Below are positions 33,511-62,930 of a stretch of 64,000 bases of DNA, piece after piece. Where the stretch lies: assembly GCF_947503795.1 (NCBI RefSeq), contig NZ_CANNEZ010000001.1, positions 797,001-861,000 of the forward strand, read 5' to 3'. The stretch is from an uncultured Jannaschia sp. Its GTDB lineage: Bacteria; Pseudomonadota; Alphaproteobacteria; Rhodobacterales; Rhodobacteraceae. Numbering within the stretch: the first letter of the stretch is position 1; each line of letters opens with the position of its first letter. The notes under the pieces were generated by a model. The model had not been told where the DNA came from. It made no database searches and saw only the letters and a list, made by a program, of their open reading frames with translations. A program made the translations under genes and the position numbers.

Positions 33511-33560
33511 CCCCATGTCGCCCACCCCGGGAGAGGGTCGGCGCCCAAGGGAGGAAGACC

Positions 33561-34520
33561 ATGACCTACACGTTTCGCGCAGCCCTGACCGGGATCGCCC
33601 TCGTCATCGGCGGGGCCGCCACCGCGGCCGAGTGCATCGCGCCCGCCAACCCCGGCGGTGGCTGGGACTTCACCTGCCGCCAGATCGGCAAGATCATGAC
33701 CGATATCGGTGTCGTCGACGGCCCCGTGCAGGTCACCAACATGGCCGGTGGCGGTGGCGGCCTGGCCTATCAGACCGTGGCCAACGAGCGCACCGATGAC
33801 GCCGAGCTGATCGTTGCCGCGAGCCAGGCGACCGCGACCCGTCTGGCGCAGGACGCCTATGGTGGCGCCACCGCCGACCAGGTGCGTTTCCTCGGCGCGA
33901 TCGGGGCCGATCCGGGCGTCATCGTCGTCGCTGCCGACAGCCCCTTCCAGACCCTGGGTGACATGCTCGACGCCATCGCCGCCGATCCCGGCAGCGTGGC
34001 CTTCGCGGGCGGCTCGGCGGCGGGCGGCTTCGACCACCTGAAGGTGCTGCAGCTGGCCAAGGCGCATGGCGTCGAGGATGTGCGCCAGATCAAGTATATC
34101 GGCGTCGATGGCGGCGCGGATGCGATCACCCAGACGGTGGGCGGCTTCACCCAAGGCATGACCGGCGACATGTCCGAGGTCGTGGGCTTCATCGAATCTG
34201 GTGACGTGCGCGTCCTCGCCGTCCTCTCGGACGAGCGGGTGCCCGGCTTCGACGACATCCCCACCGCCGTCGAGCAGGGCGTGGACGTCGTCGCGGTCAA
34301 CTGGCGCGGGCTCTACGTTCCGAAGGACATCTCGGACGAGGCCTTCAACGACTGGGTCGCCAAGCTCCAGGCCGTCGGCGAGAGCGAGGAATGGGCCGAG
34401 GCCATGGCCGCCAACGGTCTGGCGCCCTTCAACGTGACCGGCAGCGATTTCGAGGCGTTCATAGCCCAGAACATCGAGGACGTCCGCACGCTGAGCCAGG
34501 AAATCGGCGTCATCCAGTAA
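33561..34520 (+). CDS. tctC: Tripartite tricarboxylate transporter substrate-binding protein
   Basis: 319 residues. A signal peptide covers ~1-22 (GIALVIGGAATAAE). The TctC/Bug fold shows ECIAPANPGGGWDFTCRQIGKI, VTNMAGGGGGLAYQTV, FLGAIGADPGVIVVAADSPF and FAGGSAAGGFDHLKV. It is periplasmic and binds citrate or related carboxylates before handing over to TctAB. GGAGGAAG precedes the ATG. Two hairpins separate it from tctB, suggesting higher expression of this soluble component. Confidence 0.92.
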   Translation: MTYTFRAALTGIALVIGGAATAAECIAPANPGGGWDFTCRQIGKIMTDIGVVDGPVQVTNMAGGGGGLAYQTVANERTDDAELIVAASQATATRLAQDAYGGATADQVRFLGAIGADPGVIVVAADSPFQTLGDMLDAIAADPGSVAFAGGSAAGGFDHLKVLQLAKAHGVEDVRQIKYIGVDGGADAITQTVGGFTQGMTGDMSEVVGFIESGDVRVLAVLSDERVPGFDDIPTAVEQGVDVVAVNWRGLYVPKDISDEAFNDWVAKLQAVGESEEWAEAMAANGLAPFNVTGSDFEAFIAQNIEDVRTLSQEIGVIQ

Positions 34521-56426: not shown

Positions 56427-58847
56427 ATGGTCCAGCACGATGATTCCGACGCCTTCGAGGCGGCCTCGCTGTCGTCCCGCGCGATGGCGGCGCGGCCCGC
56501 GCCCTATCTCGAAGGGTTGAACGCCGCGCAGATCCAGGCGGTCGAGACGCTGGACGGCCCCGTCCTGATGCTGGCGGGGGCAGGCACCGGCAAGACCCGC
56601 GCCCTGACCGCGCGGATCGCGCACCTGATGGCTCGGGGTAAGGCGCGCCCGAACGAGATCCTTGCCGTCACCTTCACCAACAAGGCCGCCCGCGAGATGC
56701 GCGAGCGCGTCGGCGCCATGATGGGCCAGGCGGCCGAGGGGATGCCGTGGCTCGGCACCTTCCACTCGGTCTGCGTCAAACTCTTGCGCCGCCACGCCGA
56801 ACTCGTCGGCCGCACGATCATGGTCAATGGCGATGCGCGCGAGGTGCATCTCCGTTCGAACTTCACGATCCTCGACACCGACGACCAGAACCGCCTCCTC
56901 AAGCAGCTGATCGAGGCCGAGGGGGTCGACACCAAGCGCTGGCCGCCCCGGATGCTGGGCGGCATCATCGACCATTGGAAGAACCGTGCCTGGACCCCCG
57001 ACAAGATCCCCGCCCACGAGGCGCAGGCCTTCGATGGCAAGGGCGTCGCGCTCTACCGCGCCTATCAGGACCGCCTCCTGACGCTGAACGCCTGCGATTT
57101 CGGCGACCTGCTGATGCATGTCATCGACATCTTCCAGCGCCATGACGACGTTCTCGCGCAATATCGCCGCTGGTTTCGCTACATCCTCGTGGACGAGTAC
57201 CAGGATACCAACGTCGCCCAGTATCTCTGGCTCCGCCTTCTGGCCGGTGGGCACAGGAACATCTGCTGCGTGGGCGACGACGACCAGTCGATCTACGGCT
57301 GGCGCGGCGCCGAGGTCGGCAACATCCTGCGCTTCGAGACGGATTTCGAGGGCGCCGAGATCATCAAGCTGGAGCAGAACTACCGCTCTACGCCCCATAT
57401 CCTCGCCGCCGCCTCGGGCGTCATCGCCGGCAACAAGGGGCGGCTGGGCAAGACACTCTGGACGGACGCGACCGATGGCGAGAAGGTCCGGCTGATCGGG
57501 CATTGGGACGGCGACGAGGAAGCCCGCTGGATCGGCGAGGAGGCCGAGTCGATGCAGCGCGGCACGCGCGGCCTCGACCCCTACACGCTCGACGACATGG
57601 CCATCCTTGTGCGCGCCGCCCACCAGATGCGCGCCTTCGAGGATCGCTTCCTGACCATCGGGCTGCCCTACCGCGTCATCGGCGGCCCCCGCTTCTACGA
57701 GCGCTTGGAAATCCGCGACGCGATGGCCTATTTCCGCCTCGTCGTCAGCCCCGACGACGACCTCGCCTTCGAACGGATCGTCAACACCCCCAAGCGCGGT
57801 CTGGGCGACAAGGCCCAGCAGACGATCCAGGTCATGGCGCGGTCGAACGGCGTTAGCCTCGTCGAAGGCGCGCGGCTCTGCGTGCGCACGAAGACCATCG
57901 GCGGCAAGGGCGGCAAGGCGCTGGGCGAGCTGGTCGATGGCCTCGACCGCTGGCGGGCCGAAATGCTCGACGGGCGCGACCACATTCACCTCGCCGAAGA
58001 GATCCTCGACGAGTCCGGCTATACCGGCTTCTGGCAGAACGAGAAGACGCCCGAGGCACCCGGCCGCCTCGAGAACCTCAAGGAACTCGTGAAGGCGCTG
58101 GAAGGGTTCGAGAACCTGCAGGGCTTCCTCGAACACGTCTCGCTCATCATGGACAACGAGCAGGCGCAGGACGAGCCCATGATCACGATCATGACCCTCC
58201 ATGCCGCCAAGGGCCTCGAATTTCCTGTCGTGTTCCTGCCCGGCTGGGAGGATGGCCTCTTTCCCAGCCAGCGCAGCATGGACGAGAGCGGCGTGAAGGG
58301 CCTCGAGGAGGAGCGGCGCCTAGCCTATGTCGGCATCACGCGCGCCGAGGAGGTCTGCACGATCAGCTTCGCCGCCAACCGGCGCGTCTATGGCCAGTGG
58401 CAATCGGCGCTGCCGTCGCGCTTCATCGACGAGCTGCCCGCCGATCACGTCGAGGTTCTGACGCCCCCCGGCCTCTATGGCGGCGGCTTCGGCGCGTCCG
58501 GCATGGCCGCGGCCCAGAAGACCGCGATGGGCGGCGGCGTCGAGAGCGATCTGCACGACCGCGCCACGAAGGCCGATGTCTACAACTCGCCCGGCTGGCG
58601 GCGGCTGCAATCGAACGCGACGCGCCCCGTGCGCCAGCCCGCCGAGGCCAAGAACCTCGTCATCGATGCCACGGCCGTCTCGGCCTTCTCCATCGCCGAC
58701 CGCGTGTTCCATACGAAGTTCGGCTATGGCGAGGTGATGGCGATCGAGGGCGACAAGCTGGAGGTCGAGTTCGACAAGGCCGGGTCGAAGAAGATCGTCG
58801 GCCGCTTTCTGATGGCCGCCGATCAGGCGGGCGAGACGCCCTTCTAG
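56427..58847 (+). CDS. uvrD: UvrD/PcrA-type DNA helicase II
   Basis: 806 residues. SF1A motifs in order: LAGAGTGKTRAL (Walker A) near 48, VTFTNKAAREM, LVDEYQDTN, GDDDQSIYGWRGA, LEQNYRST, TLHAAKGLEFPVVFLPGWEDGLFP, RRLAYVGITRA. The C-terminal ~60 residues (VFHTKFGYGEVMAIEGDKLEVEFDKAGSKKIVGRF) form the Tudor-like RNA-polymerase-binding domain of PcrA/UvrD. Functions in nucleotide-excision and mismatch repair and in transcription-coupled repair. The stop overlaps the next convergent gene in CTAG. Confidence 0.94.
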   Translation: MVQHDDSDAFEAASLSSRAMAARPAPYLEGLNAAQIQAVETLDGPVLMLAGAGTGKTRALTARIAHLMARGKARPNEILAVTFTNKAAREMRERVGAMMGQAAEGMPWLGTFHSVCVKLLRRHAELVGRTIMVNGDAREVHLRSNFTILDTDDQNRLLKQLIEAEGVDTKRWPPRMLGGIIDHWKNRAWTPDKIPAHEAQAFDGKGVALYRAYQDRLLTLNACDFGDLLMHVIDIFQRHDDVLAQYRRWFRYILVDEYQDTNVAQYLWLRLLAGGHRNICCVGDDDQSIYGWRGAEVGNILRFETDFEGAEIIKLEQNYRSTPHILAAASGVIAGNKGRLGKTLWTDATDGEKVRLIGHWDGDEEARWIGEEAESMQRGTRGLDPYTLDDMAILVRAAHQMRAFEDRFLTIGLPYRVIGGPRFYERLEIRDAMAYFRLVVSPDDDLAFERIVNTPKRGLGDKAQQTIQVMARSNGVSLVEGARLCVRTKTIGGKGGKALGELVDGLDRWRAEMLDGRDHIHLAEEILDESGYTGFWQNEKTPEAPGRLENLKELVKALEGFENLQGFLEHVSLIMDNEQAQDEPMITIMTLHAAKGLEFPVVFLPGWEDGLFPSQRSMDESGVKGLEEERRLAYVGITRAEEVCTISFAANRRVYGQWQSALPSRFIDELPADHVEVLTPPGLYGGGFGASGMAAAQKTAMGGGVESDLHDRATKADVYNSPGWRRLQSNATRPVRQPAEAKNLVIDATAVSAFSIADRVFHTKFGYGEVMAIEGDKLEVEFDKAGSKKIVGRFLMAADQAGETPF

Positions 58848-59542
58848 GCCACGCCCAGCCAGTCGAAGGCTTCGGCAACCACTCCATGCGCGTCCGCGGT
58901 CACGGGCGGGCCGTGCGCGAAGACCGCCTGCCGGATCGGCCAGTCGAGGATGCGCCGCACCGCCGCCCGGCCCGCCCGCCGGTCCGTCTGCGCCAGCCGG
59001 AACTTCAATGGCACCTGCGGCCGCGGCCCCGTCATCCGGTCGAGCCGCGCGACCGCGCCCCGCCAGCCGGTATTCGCCTCGGGCGGCAGTTGTTGGATCA
59101 GGTCGGTGAAAAGAACCGTGCCGCTCGGCGCGTGGAACGCCACGATCTCGGTCGTGATGCGGTTGCCCGGAACGGTCACCGCATCGAGCGTGCCGGCCCA
59201 GCTGTCGGGCCAGGGCGCGGACAACAAGCCGTCCAAGGCAAGGTCCGGTCGTTTGGCCGCCAGCCCCGGCGCGGCGAGAGCGCGCGCTTCGGGGAACCGC
59301 CCGGCCCAATCCGAGATCCAGAGGTGGTGCAAGTGGTTGGGGGCCACGATCTCTTCGACCGGGCCGAGGGCCGCGACCTCTGCGACCAGCGCGTCCCGCG
59401 CCGCGACCGGCGACCAGAGCACCGACCCGCCCGACGCCAGCCGGATCACCACCATCCGCGTCGGATAGCGAAACCCGGCCACCGTCGCGGTGGCGCCATC
59501 CGCAAGCCAGAGGCTTGGGCCGAAGGGCAGGAGACCTGTCAC
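58844..59542 (-). CDS. DUF4336 family protein (metallo-hydrolase-like)
   Basis: 232 residues from GTG 59542. GLLPFGPSLWLADG and TRMVVIRLASGGSVLWSP lead into EEIVAPNHLHHLWISDWAGRFPEARALAAPGL, FHAPSGTVLFTDLIQQ, and a DRMTGPRPQVPL segment, as in the DUF4336 family related to metallo-beta-lactamase folds. The His in NHLHH and Asp in FTD are candidate metal ligands. An ATG at 59611 is rejected: it lies in the terminator hairpin of the upstream RNA operon. Confidence 0.8.
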   Translation of the reverse strand: MTGLLPFGPSLWLADGATATVAGFRYPTRMVVIRLASGGSVLWSPVAARDALVAEVAALGPVEEIVAPNHLHHLWISDWAGRFPEARALAAPGLAAKRPDLALDGLLSAPWPDSWAGTLDAVTVPGNRITTEIVAFHAPSGTVLFTDLIQQLPPEANTGWRGAVARLDRMTGPRPQVPLKFRLAQTDRRAGRAAVRRILDWPIRQAVFAHGPPVTADAHGVVAEAFDWLGVA

Positions 59543-59584
59543 GGCCCTGAGTTTAGTCGGATCGAACGTCGCGGAAAACGAAGA

Positions 59585-59617
59585 ACGGCGGTGCTCCACG
59601 CCGTGGGGCACCGCCGT
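59585..59617 (-). terminator. Terminator at the end of the ccaF1-ccsR transcript
   Basis: A stem of about 15 bp (59585-59599 with 59603-59617, one G-U) with a 3-nt loop, followed on the minus strand by a T-rich TTCTTCGTTTT tract. It lies after the last CCTCCC motif. Confidence 0.75.
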
Positions 59618-59784
59618 CTATAGTGCGCCGTCCGCTTCGGGGGGGACGATGTGCGGTCGCGGCGCGTCGGACGATCGCCAGAGGGAACAAGCGGCGTCCA
59701 ATCATTCACCGAACGCCGTTTCGGCGATCCGGTTCCGCCAGGGCGCGAAGTTTTTTCTTACGCGCCGCGCGTCAACGTTGGAGT

Positions 59785-60162
59785 CAAGGGGAAGGGAGGG
59801 TCGTCCGGTCCGGCGATCCCCAAGGGAGGATGGGTATCGCCGAACCGGTCGATATCGCGCATCCGGCCCAAGGGAGGATGAGGGATGCGCGGAACGGTCT
59901 CGCCCGAGGGAGGACGGGGAGCCCGTATCGTGTCGGCCGGTCGCGGAAGCGGCCCGGCGCGGGGTCAGTCGGCCCCCGGCGGCGCCCCTCAGGGAGGGAT
60001 GGGGCGCCGTCAGGGCCTTCCGTGTGCACCGGCCCCGTGGGAGGACGGAGGCGCGGTGCGGATCGGCCCGAGGGAGGTCGGGCCGGGCCGCGGCGGCAGG
60101 TCCGGGAGGGGGACGCCGCCACGAGGACCCGTCGGAACGCAAGGGAGGATGCGCCCGCCGGG
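59785..60162 (-). ncRNA. ccsR: CcsR-like small RNA array (about nine CCTCCC hairpin units)
   Basis: Downstream of the ccaF1-like gene, the minus strand has CCTCCC nine times (plus coordinates starting 59794, 59824, 59872, 59908, 59992, 60039, 60072, 60104, 60143). Eight sit in the loops of distinct hairpins, for instance 60064-60071 with 60078-60085 (8 bp perfect) and 59856-59864 with 59883-59891 (9 bp). Three loops are identical, ATCCTCCCTT. Stems differ, loops are conserved. R. sphaeroides CcsR1-4 are four such RNAs processed from the RSP_6037 (ccaF1) transcript and induced by stress sigma factors; here the number seems doubled. Loops mimic the anti-Shine-Dalgarno. Confidence 0.85.
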
Positions 60163-60169
60163 ATGGGAA

Positions 60170-60394
60170 TTACTTCGTGCCGTAGGCCGCTTCCATCGCG
60201 ATCCACGGGATGTTCGAACGCGCGATGGCGAGATCCGCCAGGTCGCGATCCGAGAGCGCCGAGAGCTCGTTGAGCGTCTGGCGGTAGACGCGCCACTGGC
60301 CCCATTGCACGCGAGCGAGACGCAGGCGGTCGGCGATGCGATCGCGCAGCGTGGTGGAGGTGGCGGCCGTATTGCCGTAGGTGGTGACAGTCAT
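60170..60394 (-). CDS. ccaF1: DUF1127 protein, CcaF1-like RNA-binding protein
   Basis: 74 residues. The DUF1127 core is WGQWRVYRQTLNELSALSDRDLADLAIARSNIP, preceded by a basic helix LRDRIADRLRLARVQ. In R. sphaeroides the cognate protein CcaF1 is an RNA-binding protein acting on processing of its own CcsR RNAs. Order and strand here (DUF1127, then RNA array, then terminator) are identical. AAGGG precedes the ATG. Just upstream, a CAAGGAAAC-containing segment occurs twice (60453-60471 and 60538-60554 on the other strand), possible regulator sites. Confidence 0.88.
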   Translation of the reverse strand: MTVTTYGNTAATSTTLRDRIADRLRLARVQWGQWRVYRQTLNELSALSDRDLADLAIARSNIPWIAMEAAYGTK

Positions 60395-60619
60395 GTCTGA
60401 CCCTTTCAGTGAGGGACATTCTGCCCCGCCGGTGCCCGACCCCATTGCCAGGTGCATCCGTGTTTCCTTGAGAGGAAGATGGGCCGGATGCTGCACCCGC
60501 ACAACGCCCCGATCCTTCAATGCTGCTATGCGGCATTTGCATGGGTTTCCTTGCGTCAGAACCCTTGTTTCGCCGCCGCGCCCTGTCGAAGCGCCCGGCA
60601 TGCGCCATATCGCAATGCG

Positions 60620-61819
60620 ATGAGCGCACTCTCCCATATCGGCTTCCGGGCTTATTTCGTGGCTGCCGTTCCGCTGGTGCAGGCGCTCTGGGCGCAGCGC
60701 GTCACGCTGGGCTGGCTCGCTTGGGACGTATCGGGCTCGGCACCCTTCGTGGGGCTGATCGCGGCGCTGGGTCTGGCGCCGATGCTGGTCTCGGGCCCGA
60801 TCTTCGGCGTGCTCGTGGACCGGGCCGACATTCGCCGCGCACTCTTCGCGACAAGCATCTCGATGGCGTTGCTCCTTGCGCTCGCGGCCCTTCTCGCCGG
60901 CGGGCCGGGGCTCGGCCGCTGGGGGCTGGCCGGGCTGGCGCTTGCCATCGGGGTCGTCACCTCGGCGCATCACCCCGTCCGCATGTCCCTCGGGCCGCGC
61001 CTCGTGCCCCGCGCCGAGGTGCCGTCGGTCGTCGCCCTCTCGGCCCTCAACTTCAACCTCGCGCGACTTCTGGCACCCGTCCTGACCGGCATCGCCATCG
61101 CGGCCTTCGGTGCGGTCGCGACGCTCTGGGCCTCGGCACTTCTGTATTTGCCGATGCTGGTGGCGATCCGCTGGATGGATCCGCGGCCGCTGTCGGCCCG
61201 CGCCACGCAAGGCAGCATCGGCGCCGGCATTGCCGAGGCCGCGCGATACCTCTGGACCACGCCCGTCGCCCGTCAGGCGGTGATCCTGACGGCGGCGATG
61301 GCGATCCTCGTGCGCGGGTATCTCGAATTGCTGCCCGTCATGGCCGAGGGCGTCCACGCGCGCGGCGCCGAAGGCCTCGGCTGGCTGACCGCGGCGGCCG
61401 GGGCAGGGGCGCTGCTGGCGGCGATGGCCAAGACCATGGGCGCGGGGCAAGCCGAGACCGGCACCTCCCGCGCGACGCTCGCGATCCTCGTGGCGGGCAT
61501 CGCGTCCCTTTCGGCGCTGGGCGCCTCGGTCTCGTGGCAGGGCGCGCTGGTCTGGACCGCGGTCGCGGGCTTCGCGTCGACCTTTTGCGGCGTCAGCTTC
61601 CAGGCGGCCGTCCAGCAGGCGCTGCCCGACGACCTCCGAGGCCGGGTGATGTCGCTCTGGGTGGTGGTGGGGATCGGCGCAGTGGCGATCGGCTCGGGCC
61701 TTCTCGGCTGGCTCGCCGGGCCGTTCGACCTGCCGACCGTGCTGCGCTGGGCCGGGGCGGTCGGTGCCGGGATGGCGGCGCTCCTGGTCTTGCCTTCCCT
61801 GCGCCGCGCCGCCACGTAA
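60620..61819 (+). CDS. MFS transporter (enterobactin-exporter/EntS-like)
   Basis: 399 residues, about eleven to twelve membrane helices. The motif GVLVDRADIRRAL is in the loop between helices 2 and 3. MFS_3-type segment SLGPRLVPRAEVPSVVALSALNFNLARLLAPVLTG and GVSFQAAVQQALPDDLRGRVMSLW also fit. The start MSALSHIG at 60620 is used; upstream frame codes no hydrophobic continuity. Exports an unknown compound. Divergent from ccaF1 by 225 bp that hold promoters but no gene I can support. Confidence 0.85.
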   Translation: MSALSHIGFRAYFVAAVPLVQALWAQRVTLGWLAWDVSGSAPFVGLIAALGLAPMLVSGPIFGVLVDRADIRRALFATSISMALLLALAALLAGGPGLGRWGLAGLALAIGVVTSAHHPVRMSLGPRLVPRAEVPSVVALSALNFNLARLLAPVLTGIAIAAFGAVATLWASALLYLPMLVAIRWMDPRPLSARATQGSIGAGIAEAARYLWTTPVARQAVILTAAMAILVRGYLELLPVMAEGVHARGAEGLGWLTAAAGAGALLAAMAKTMGAGQAETGTSRATLAILVAGIASLSALGASVSWQGALVWTAVAGFASTFCGVSFQAAVQQALPDDLRGRVMSLWVVVGIGAVAIGSGLLGWLAGPFDLPTVLRWAGAVGAGMAALLVLPSLRRAAT

Positions 61820-61847
61820 GGCCCGACACGGCGACAGGGGACGGGCC

Positions 61848-62930
61848 ATGGCGATCACGCGCGACGACGTAAAGGCGGAACTGGCCCGCGTGGCGGTGCC
61901 CGACGGGCGCAATCTCGTCTCCGCCGACCTGGTCCGCGCGCTCACCGTGACCGACGGCGCGGTCAGCTTCGTCATCGAGGCCCCATCCGCCGAGATCGCC
62001 CGCCAGATGGAGCCGCTGCGCGCCGCCGCCGAGGGCCTCGTGGCCAAGATGCCCGGCGTCGCCCGCGTGCAGGCCGTGCTCACCGCGCCGACCGAGACCA
62101 AGGCGCCACCGTCCCTGAAGGTGGGCGGTCACCCGAAGTCACAGGACGGGCCGATGCGCGTGCCCGGCGTGGATCGCGTCGTCGCCATCGCGTCCGGCAA
62201 GGGCGGCGTGGGCAAGTCCACGCTCGCCGCGAACCTCGCCGTGGCGCTGGCACGGCAGGGACGGCGCGTCGGTCTGCTCGACGCCGATATCTACGGCCCG
62301 TCCCAGCCTCGCATGATGGGGGCCAACCAGCGCCCCGCTTCGCCCGACGGCAAGACCATCCATCCGCTTCAGGCCCATGGCGTCACGCTGATGTCGATCG
62401 GCCTGATGCTCGATGCCGACAAGGCCGTGGTCTGGCGCGGCCCGATGCTGATGGGTGCCTTGCAGCAGATGTTGGGACAGGTGGCCTGGACGCATCACAC
62501 CGATGGCGCCAACCTCGACGTCCTCATCGTCGATCTGCCGCCGGGGACCGGCGACGTGCAGCTCACGCTCTCGACCAAGGCCGTCGTGACCGGCGCGGTC
62601 GTTGTCTCGACCCCGCAGGACGTGGCCCTTCTGGATGCACGCAAGGCGCTCGACATGTTCGCCACGCTCAAGACCCCGGTGCTGGGGCTGGTCGAGAACA
62701 TGAGCCTCTTTCACTGCCCGAATTGCGGCCATGAGGCGCATATCTTCGGCCACGGGGGCGTCGCGGCCGAAGCGGAAGCGCTGGGCCTGCCGCTTCTGGG
62801 AACACTGCCCATCGACCTCGAGACCCGGCTGGCCGGGGACGAGGGGACACCCATCGCGGCCGGTGACGGGCCGATGGCCGACGCCTTCGCCGACCTCGCG
62901 CGGCGTCTGATCGAGATGGACGCCGGCTAA
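61848..62930 (+). CDS. mrp: Mrp/NBP35-family iron-sulfur carrier ATPase
   Basis: 360 residues. N-terminal MIP18-like domain (DDVKAELARVAVPDGRNLVSADLVRALTV), then deviant Walker A ASGKGGVGKSTLAAN, LLDADIYGPSQPRMMG, DVLIVDLPPGTGDVQLTL, and CPNCGHEAHIFGHGG with the CxxC that bridges an Fe4S4 cluster between subunits. It assembles and transfers Fe-S clusters (ApbC role). 28 bp after the MFS gene. Confidence 0.93.
   Translation: MAITRDDVKAELARVAVPDGRNLVSADLVRALTVTDGAVSFVIEAPSAEIARQMEPLRAAAEGLVAKMPGVARVQAVLTAPTETKAPPSLKVGGHPKSQDGPMRVPGVDRVVAIASGKGGVGKSTLAANLAVALARQGRRVGLLDADIYGPSQPRMMGANQRPASPDGKTIHPLQAHGVTLMSIGLMLDADKAVVWRGPMLMGALQQMLGQVAWTHHTDGANLDVLIVDLPPGTGDVQLTLSTKAVVTGAVVVSTPQDVALLDARKALDMFATLKTPVLGLVENMSLFHCPNCGHEAHIFGHGGVAAEAEALGLPLLGTLPIDLETRLAGDEGTPIAAGDGPMADAFADLARRLIEMDAG

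Follow-up and report, generated by a model that had tools for sequence, protein, structure and literature searches.

Does a DUF1127 gene with a series of same-strand CCTCCC motifs behind it, found in 64,000 nt of an uncultured Jannaschia sp. (this whole stretch is the window), correspond to the ccaF1-CcsR locus of R. sphaeroides, and is its array of anti-Shine-Dalgarno (anti-SD) loops an enlarged one, as an earlier note on this DNA had claimed? Judged by its sequence, the locus is identified as the orthologue of the R. sphaeroides ccaF1-CcsR locus (CIN1-type) in a Jannaschia-type variant, and its array is assigned on the same grounds as a real, conserved regulatory RNA array; the array is ordinary in size, eight loops being the normal dose of the family.

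Organization of the Locus

On the minus strand the order is the DUF1127 gene, nine exact CCTCCC motifs (60148-59794), and a terminator-like hairpin. The ccaF1-like gene (60394-60170, -) encodes 74 aa with a DUF1127 domain (Pfam PF06568, E 2.3e-11); its product shares 63% identity with a same-genus orthologue across residues 1-73, and the first motif starts 21 nt past its stop codon. Eight motifs lie in the loops of hairpins predicted by local folding, with unpaired probabilities of 0.93-1.00, and three of these loops are identical, all being CATCCTCCCTTG. The hairpins are all on the minus strand and are given here with their scores in a covariance model of same-genus hairpins (R3, described below): hairpin 1 (60126-60164, motif 60148-60143, 23.2 bits), hairpin 2 (60091-60122, motif 60109-60104, absent from the model's matches), hairpin 3 (60056-60093, motif 60077-60072, 27.3 bits), hairpin 4 (60024-60060, motif 60044-60039, partial match at 60053-60030 with 14.3 bits), hairpin 5 (59976-60013, motif 59997-59992, 25.5 bits), hairpin 6 (59892-59928, motif 59913-59908, 22.1 bits), hairpin 7 (59856-59891, motif 59877-59872, 15.5 bits), and hairpin 8 (59808-59845, motif 59829-59824, 31.8 bits). 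The ninth CCTCCC (59794-59799, -) stands outside a clean hairpin loop (unpaired probability 0.62, local fold z -0.97) and is perhaps a remnant. The predicted terminator, of the Rho-independent type, consists of the stem GACGGCGGTGC..GCACCGCCGT (59584-59618, -; z -3.8, 14.7 bits in R3), whose loop has no CCTCCC, followed by the U-rich TCTTCGTTTT. The earlier note had described the gene with its nine motifs, the eight motifs in hairpin loops, the three identical loops and the terminator, and had compared the whole with ccaF1-CcsR; all of this is borne out, the locus being assigned to ccaF1-CcsR by its gene, order, strand, upstream element, and terminator-like end and by an order of the hairpins that is common to the genus.

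The array is laid out as 5+3, i.e., hairpins 1-5, a wide gap, and hairpins 6-8. The gap, the widest in the array, is a linker without motif (59929-59975, -), possibly a cleavage region or a separate structure; in 13 of the 20 distinct genus loci, window included, the widest gap likewise follows the fifth motif, with 83-115 nt from motif to motif.

The closest known system is ccaF1-CcsR1-4 of R. sphaeroides (RSP_6037, RSs0680a-d), which shares with the window the short DUF1127 gene, the same-strand tandem anti-SD hairpins behind it, the upstream element, and the terminator. The two differ in the loops and in their spacing, since the window lacks the nonamer CCUCCUCCC and has a 5+3 arrangement in which a single wide gap takes the place of recurring pairs; furthermore, the window is unmatched by a covariance model of Cereibacter hairpins. 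In the wider cuckoo RNA family (CIN1 locus) of Alphaproteobacteria, e.g., SmelA075 and SmelA099, a varying number of hairpins, an anti-SD loop, and variable adjacent stems are likewise reported. The loop described for this family is CCUCCUCCC, whereas the window loops are (N)CCUCCC; judged by the nonamer, the array stands outside the strict description of cuckoo RNAs.

Loci Compared

The comparison was based on 130 loci, namely 29 loci (the top 29 apart from the window, out of 351 genomes with a match among 394 drawn from the family), 80 loci (the best 80 named, with at least 249 relatives among 594 stretches), the window, 19 further genus genomes, and the locus of a genome taken as R. sphaeroides. 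The latter genome (G051) is presumably that species because its reaction-centre L protein is identical over 281 residues to the R. sphaeroides sequence. Its CcaF1 has 71 residues, equal to the length reported for R. sphaeroides. The removal of 10 duplicates left 120 distinct loci, 114 of which, window included, extend at least 700 nt past the stop codon; two genus loci duplicate those of Jannaschia pohangensis (L042) and J. faecimaris (L102), as seen from the sequence behind the gene, and the genus of the window is accordingly Jannaschia or a group that GTDB unites with it. The sample is biased toward proteins resembling the queries.

An array with at least two motifs follows the CcaF1-like ORF in 118 of the 120 distinct loci, and none was found in the other two, L064 (with just 159 nt of flank) and L108. 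No array follows any of the three other DUF1127 genes in the window's own assembly, although one of them has a single motif at the stop codon; these genes (L001, L003, and L004, on contig C1 at 557 kb and 1861 kb) include two that are close together.

Motif Clustering and Covariation of the Stems

Besides the nine motifs of the array, 19 exact CCTCCC occur elsewhere in the window on both strands. Across the whole window CCTCCC/GGGAGG is found 28 times against a mean of 61 in dinucleotide shuffles, i.e., it is rarer than predicted, and therefore the cluster is no effect of composition. In a first-order Markov simulation (200 sequences, 400 strands) the maximum was 4 CCTCCC in 361 nt. A search of the whole assembly for three closely spaced CCTCCC gave five overlapping matches in the array and one elsewhere, with 0 in the reversed control.

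The 456-nt stretch folds with a z of -6.1. The pairing of the individual stems was analyzed by arm swaps, in which each native hairpin was set against the mean of 12 between-species swaps of the 3' arm in 13 of the 20 genus loci (those with eight or nine motifs). The native arms folded better than the chimera mean in 98 of 104 cases. All eight window hairpins beat the chimera mean; six of them beat every chimera, and two fold worse than the best one. Between genus loci the stem arms share just 44% identity. From 14 genus arrays RNAalifold predicted 45 pairs, 22 of which show one or more compensatory changes; it recovered hairpins 2, 5, and the last well, 3 and 4 partly, and 1, 6, and 7, where the alignment is poor, not at all. 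It should be considered that the window's eighth hairpin is no strict orthologue of the terminal hairpin in the other genus loci. A pair count on 48 genus hairpins gave 91% paired cells versus 38-50% when slid, a value that is inflated because these 48 were picked out of 147 for a good symmetric stem. The note's placing of the loops on diverged stems is upheld, with the addition that the stems co-vary.

The locus has a G+C content of 71%, which would favor the array being a chance product of a G+C-rich intergenic region; such an origin has practically no probability, as five motifs in such a length occurred in none of the 400 simulated strands, the motif is strongly strand-biased among relatives (908 sense versus 2 antisense CCTCCC in the first 500 nt of 114 distinct loci), and the stems co-vary within the genus by both arm swaps and compensatory changes.

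The covariance search proposed in the earlier note, with fewer than five units as the refuting limit, gave a divided outcome. The model built from 28 Cereibacter hairpins with the structure given (R2) found no array signal in the window, its best array match (12.8 bits, E 1.3) ranking below eight unrelated places; the same model does match nonamer loci from other genera as well as some loci of the genus. A model on RNAalifold's own consensus (R1) had kept two pairs. The model R3, made from 48 same-genus hairpins with the window left out, has its five best matches in the 64 kb all in the array (E 1.7e-4 to 0.022), and in a search of the array alone it detects seven of the eight hairpins at 14 bits or more, hairpin 2 being the missing one; two antisense matches in the array, at 17.6 and 19.3 bits, score above two of these seven. 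Taken literally, the note's refuting limit is reached with R2, which counts against its finding, and is not reached with R3; we read the failure of R2 as loop and stems having diverged from the R. sphaeroides type, the array itself being real. The authors of the RNA family reportedly found that covariance models lose power for SmelA075.

The search of Rfam (E up to 10, positions 58000-62000) yielded nothing above the gathering score. Its sole match, 6C RNA at 60092-60024 (-), was rejected at 22.4 bits against a cut-off of 47.

Number of Anti-SD Loops

The earlier note had spoken of nine hairpins instead of four, i.e., of a doubled copy number, and had considered nine unusual. This sets hairpins against RNAs. 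RSs0680a of R. sphaeroides, which was reportedly renamed CcsR1 when RSs0680a-d became CcsR1-4, is described as having two stem loops, each with an anti-SD motif, and SmelA075 and SmelA099 as having three and four stem loops, respectively (PMC3927594). With two loops per described CcsR, four CcsRs therefore amount to eight loops, the number found in the window.

The count of motifs across Rhodobacteraceae, which the note had suggested as a check, was performed by taking motifs within 12 nt as one and entering R. sphaeroides with its 14 nonamers, and it reveals no expansion. The 114 distinct loci have a median of 8 loops (range 0-16), with nine or more in 39 of them, window included; the 20 genus loci also have a median of 8 (range 5-11), with nine or more in three, window included. 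In the genome taken as R. sphaeroides, 14 nonamers form seven pairs, and seven of its 21 CCTCCC in total lie outside the nonamers. Four other Cereibacter genomes have 8, 8, 8, and 10 nonamers, a further copy with 8 being present on a short contig in one of them. A sponge expanded to about double the usual units, to which the presence of nine motifs had pointed, is thus extremely unlikely in view of the two loops of the described CcsR RNA, of both medians, of the 39 loci with nine or more and the maximum of 16, and of the 14 nonamer loops of G051. The comparison corrects a tempting error, that of comparing hairpins with RNAs, and the count over many loci gives about eight anti-SD loops per CcaF1 locus. 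Published loop counts per species were sought by title and abstract and none was found; neither the counts nor the motif-bearing terminators described below are claimed to be new.

As a side observation, the presumed R. sphaeroides locus (L135/L142, G051:C4) comprises seven two-loop units, several near-identical, versus four published CcsRs, and its relatives have four or five.

Loop Sequence and End of the Array

The family nonamer CCUCCUCCC is found in none of the nine window motifs, in 53 of 156 genus loops (34%), and, outside the genus, in 675 of 764 loops (88%); it is also missing from one other genus locus, L127. Since CCTCCC was the search key, the conservation of the hexamer cannot be read from these counts. 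The loss of the first three bases of the nonamer from most loops of the genus suggests that the hexamer CCUCCC is the working part, and this bears on which mRNAs are within reach of such RNAs.

These counts also bear on a simpler role of the hairpins, that of a mere stabilizer or terminator region in the 3' UTR whose C-rich loops have no function in trans. Strong hairpins and a terminator-like end would suit this role; nevertheless, it is very unlikely, because the arms are so weakly conserved (44% identity) and yet CCT precedes CCTCCC in 675 of the 764 loops from other genera, and stability alone does not demand a kept loop sequence.

At the end of the array, the last motif lies in an unbroken stem of at least 8 pairs followed by a U-run in 85 of the 113 distinct loci with a motif, versus 32 of 807 other motifs; in these 85 loci the terminator itself would carry an anti-SD loop, an example being L125:2072-2102. 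The test is strict and misses some, such as L118 (judged by eye), and the 28 loci failing it include the window and R. sphaeroides. The terminator-like stem of the window is much like the motif-bearing last hairpins of the genus, its loop being without the motif, and we infer that it is their orthologue. A scan with a terminator consensus also lists this hairpin but is weak in itself, with 2 sites in the region, one of them on the other strand, versus 0.7 in shuffles.

A parallel for a terminator loop with an anti-SD site is reported in the LhrC family of Listeria, in which UCCC sites recur in loops, including that of the terminator, and pair with target mRNA (PMC4132741). LhrC is unrelated to the array and is likened to it by mechanism only, having no tandem hairpin array of the window's kind. 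It is not known to have a DUF1127 partner.

Upstream Region

An element of the type TTGTGC-N-GCAGCA, a pattern that was loosened after the first look at the loci, is present in 104 of the 120 distinct loci, about 65-195 nt before the matched ORF start. In the window it was located by regular expression as TTGTGCGGGTGCAGCA..CCCATCTT, from 60504 within the region 60544-60475 (-), and this TTGTGC..CCCATCTT element resembles the one that precedes ccaF1 in the presumed R. sphaeroides genome. CCCATNT occurs upstream in 45 of the 120 distinct loci versus 8 of 130 loci on the opposite strand. By its resemblance to the consensus, the upstream element is a candidate RpoH promoter. The R. sphaeroides transcript reportedly starts at an RpoHI/RpoHII promoter.

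A second block, roughly YATGCANNTGCTGCATRGCAGCATTG, lies about 15 nt farther upstream and was seen by eye in the locus excerpts, as was the conservation of the corresponding window block CCATGCAAATGCCGCATAGCAGCATTG (60544-60518, -). CTGC-N3-GCAG in the upstream block was considered as a PhaR-type operator by its consensus. Regarding the specificity of these sequences, the core TTGTGCNNNNGCAGCA has two matches in the window's own assembly, one at this locus, and 7 in four genomes, 4 of which are at ccaF1 loci; CTGCATNGCRGCATTG with one mismatch has 20 matches in four genomes, 4 at ccaF1 loci. The upstream region (60544-60475, -) seems to exceed the length that a promoter by itself requires.

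Proposed Mechanism

In R. sphaeroides, ccaF1 is reported to be co-transcribed with the four CcsRs, the transcript being cleaved by RNase E; effects of CcaF1 and PNPase, induction by stress, and an influence on C1 metabolism are also reported. The locus of the window probably is, as a whole, a ccaF1-CcsR-type locus with R. sphaeroides-like processing and selective mRNA control. By orthology, one stress-induced transcript would start from an RpoH-type promoter and RNase E, helped by CcaF1, would cut it to short RNAs that each comprise at least one hairpin; by pairing with the ribosome-binding sites of particular mRNAs, the loops would reduce the translation or stability of these mRNAs. As far as pairing energies indicate, the loops would favor GGGAGG-type sites over the canonical AGGAGGU sites, which the 16S tail would bind best; such a preference would make the control selective and not global.

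The loops could instead mainly bind a protein, CcaF1 or another one, titrating it or regulating its own mRNA, with mRNA pairing being secondary. CcaF1 is in fact reported to bind RNA and to act on the maturation of CcsR, and gene and array are neighbors in 118 of 120 loci, a figure to be read knowing that the loci were found by the gene; against this stand the anti-SD sequence of the motif and the modulation of target genes reported for the R. sphaeroides RNAs, so that this possibility is considered unlikely.

Target-Site Preference

The pairing energies were computed without the strain of the hairpin loop and with an assumed 16S tail; the 16S 3' tail was sought in the window's own assembly and was not found there. 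The loop AUCCUCCCUU pairs with AAGGGAGG (AAAGGGAGGAAG) at -15.8 kcal/mol versus -11.5 for the assumed tail, and with AAGGAGGU (AAAAGGAGGUGA) at -8.7 kcal/mol versus -16.1 for the assumed tail. The nonamer loop gives -15.9 and -9.9 for the same two sites (AAGGGAGG and AAGGAGGU, respectively); these energies are nearly equal to the former, and therefore the preference for AAGGGAGG is not caused by the shortening of the loop. For a different loop of the window, GUCCUCCCAC, the energy on GAAGGAGGACG is -14.3 versus -11.9 for the 16S tail, i.e., this loop would outbid the tail at one AGGAGGAC site, and this modeled result speaks against strict selectivity.

Such energies raise the possibility that the anti-SD loops are a selective switch that reads the spelling of the SD, outbidding the ribosome on AAGGGAGG and losing on AAGGAGGU, by which a small regulon would be turned down; this proposal is an unlikely one. 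If it were true, one stress-induced array would act on 16 candidate start sites, four of them belonging to solute-binding proteins, and the shortened loops of the genus would show which part of the nonamer matters, namely its 3' half. The start sites were identified by searching the assembly for AAGGGAGGN4-10ATG, which gave 17 matches versus 1 in the reversed control. One of these 17 AAGGGAGG sites is antisense to the array, leaving 16 candidates, and one opens an ORF of 47 aa. They are offered as a short list for testing the reach of CCUCCC loops.

The 15 other AAGGGAGG proteins were all tested with Pfam and include four solute-binding ones (TctC, DctP, Peripla_BP_6, and SBP_bac_1). The comparison sites, AAGGAGG, had 45 matches versus 8 in the reversed control; 30 of the 45 were fetched and, five ORFs being shorter than 60 aa, 25 were tested. 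Solute-binding proteins thus make up 4 of 15 AAGGGAGG genes versus 1 of 25 AAGGAGG genes (one-sided Fisher p 0.056), a weak excess that is a lead and not a result. One AAGGGAGG site is located inside the window itself, at 33547-33563 (+), and its gene is TctC.
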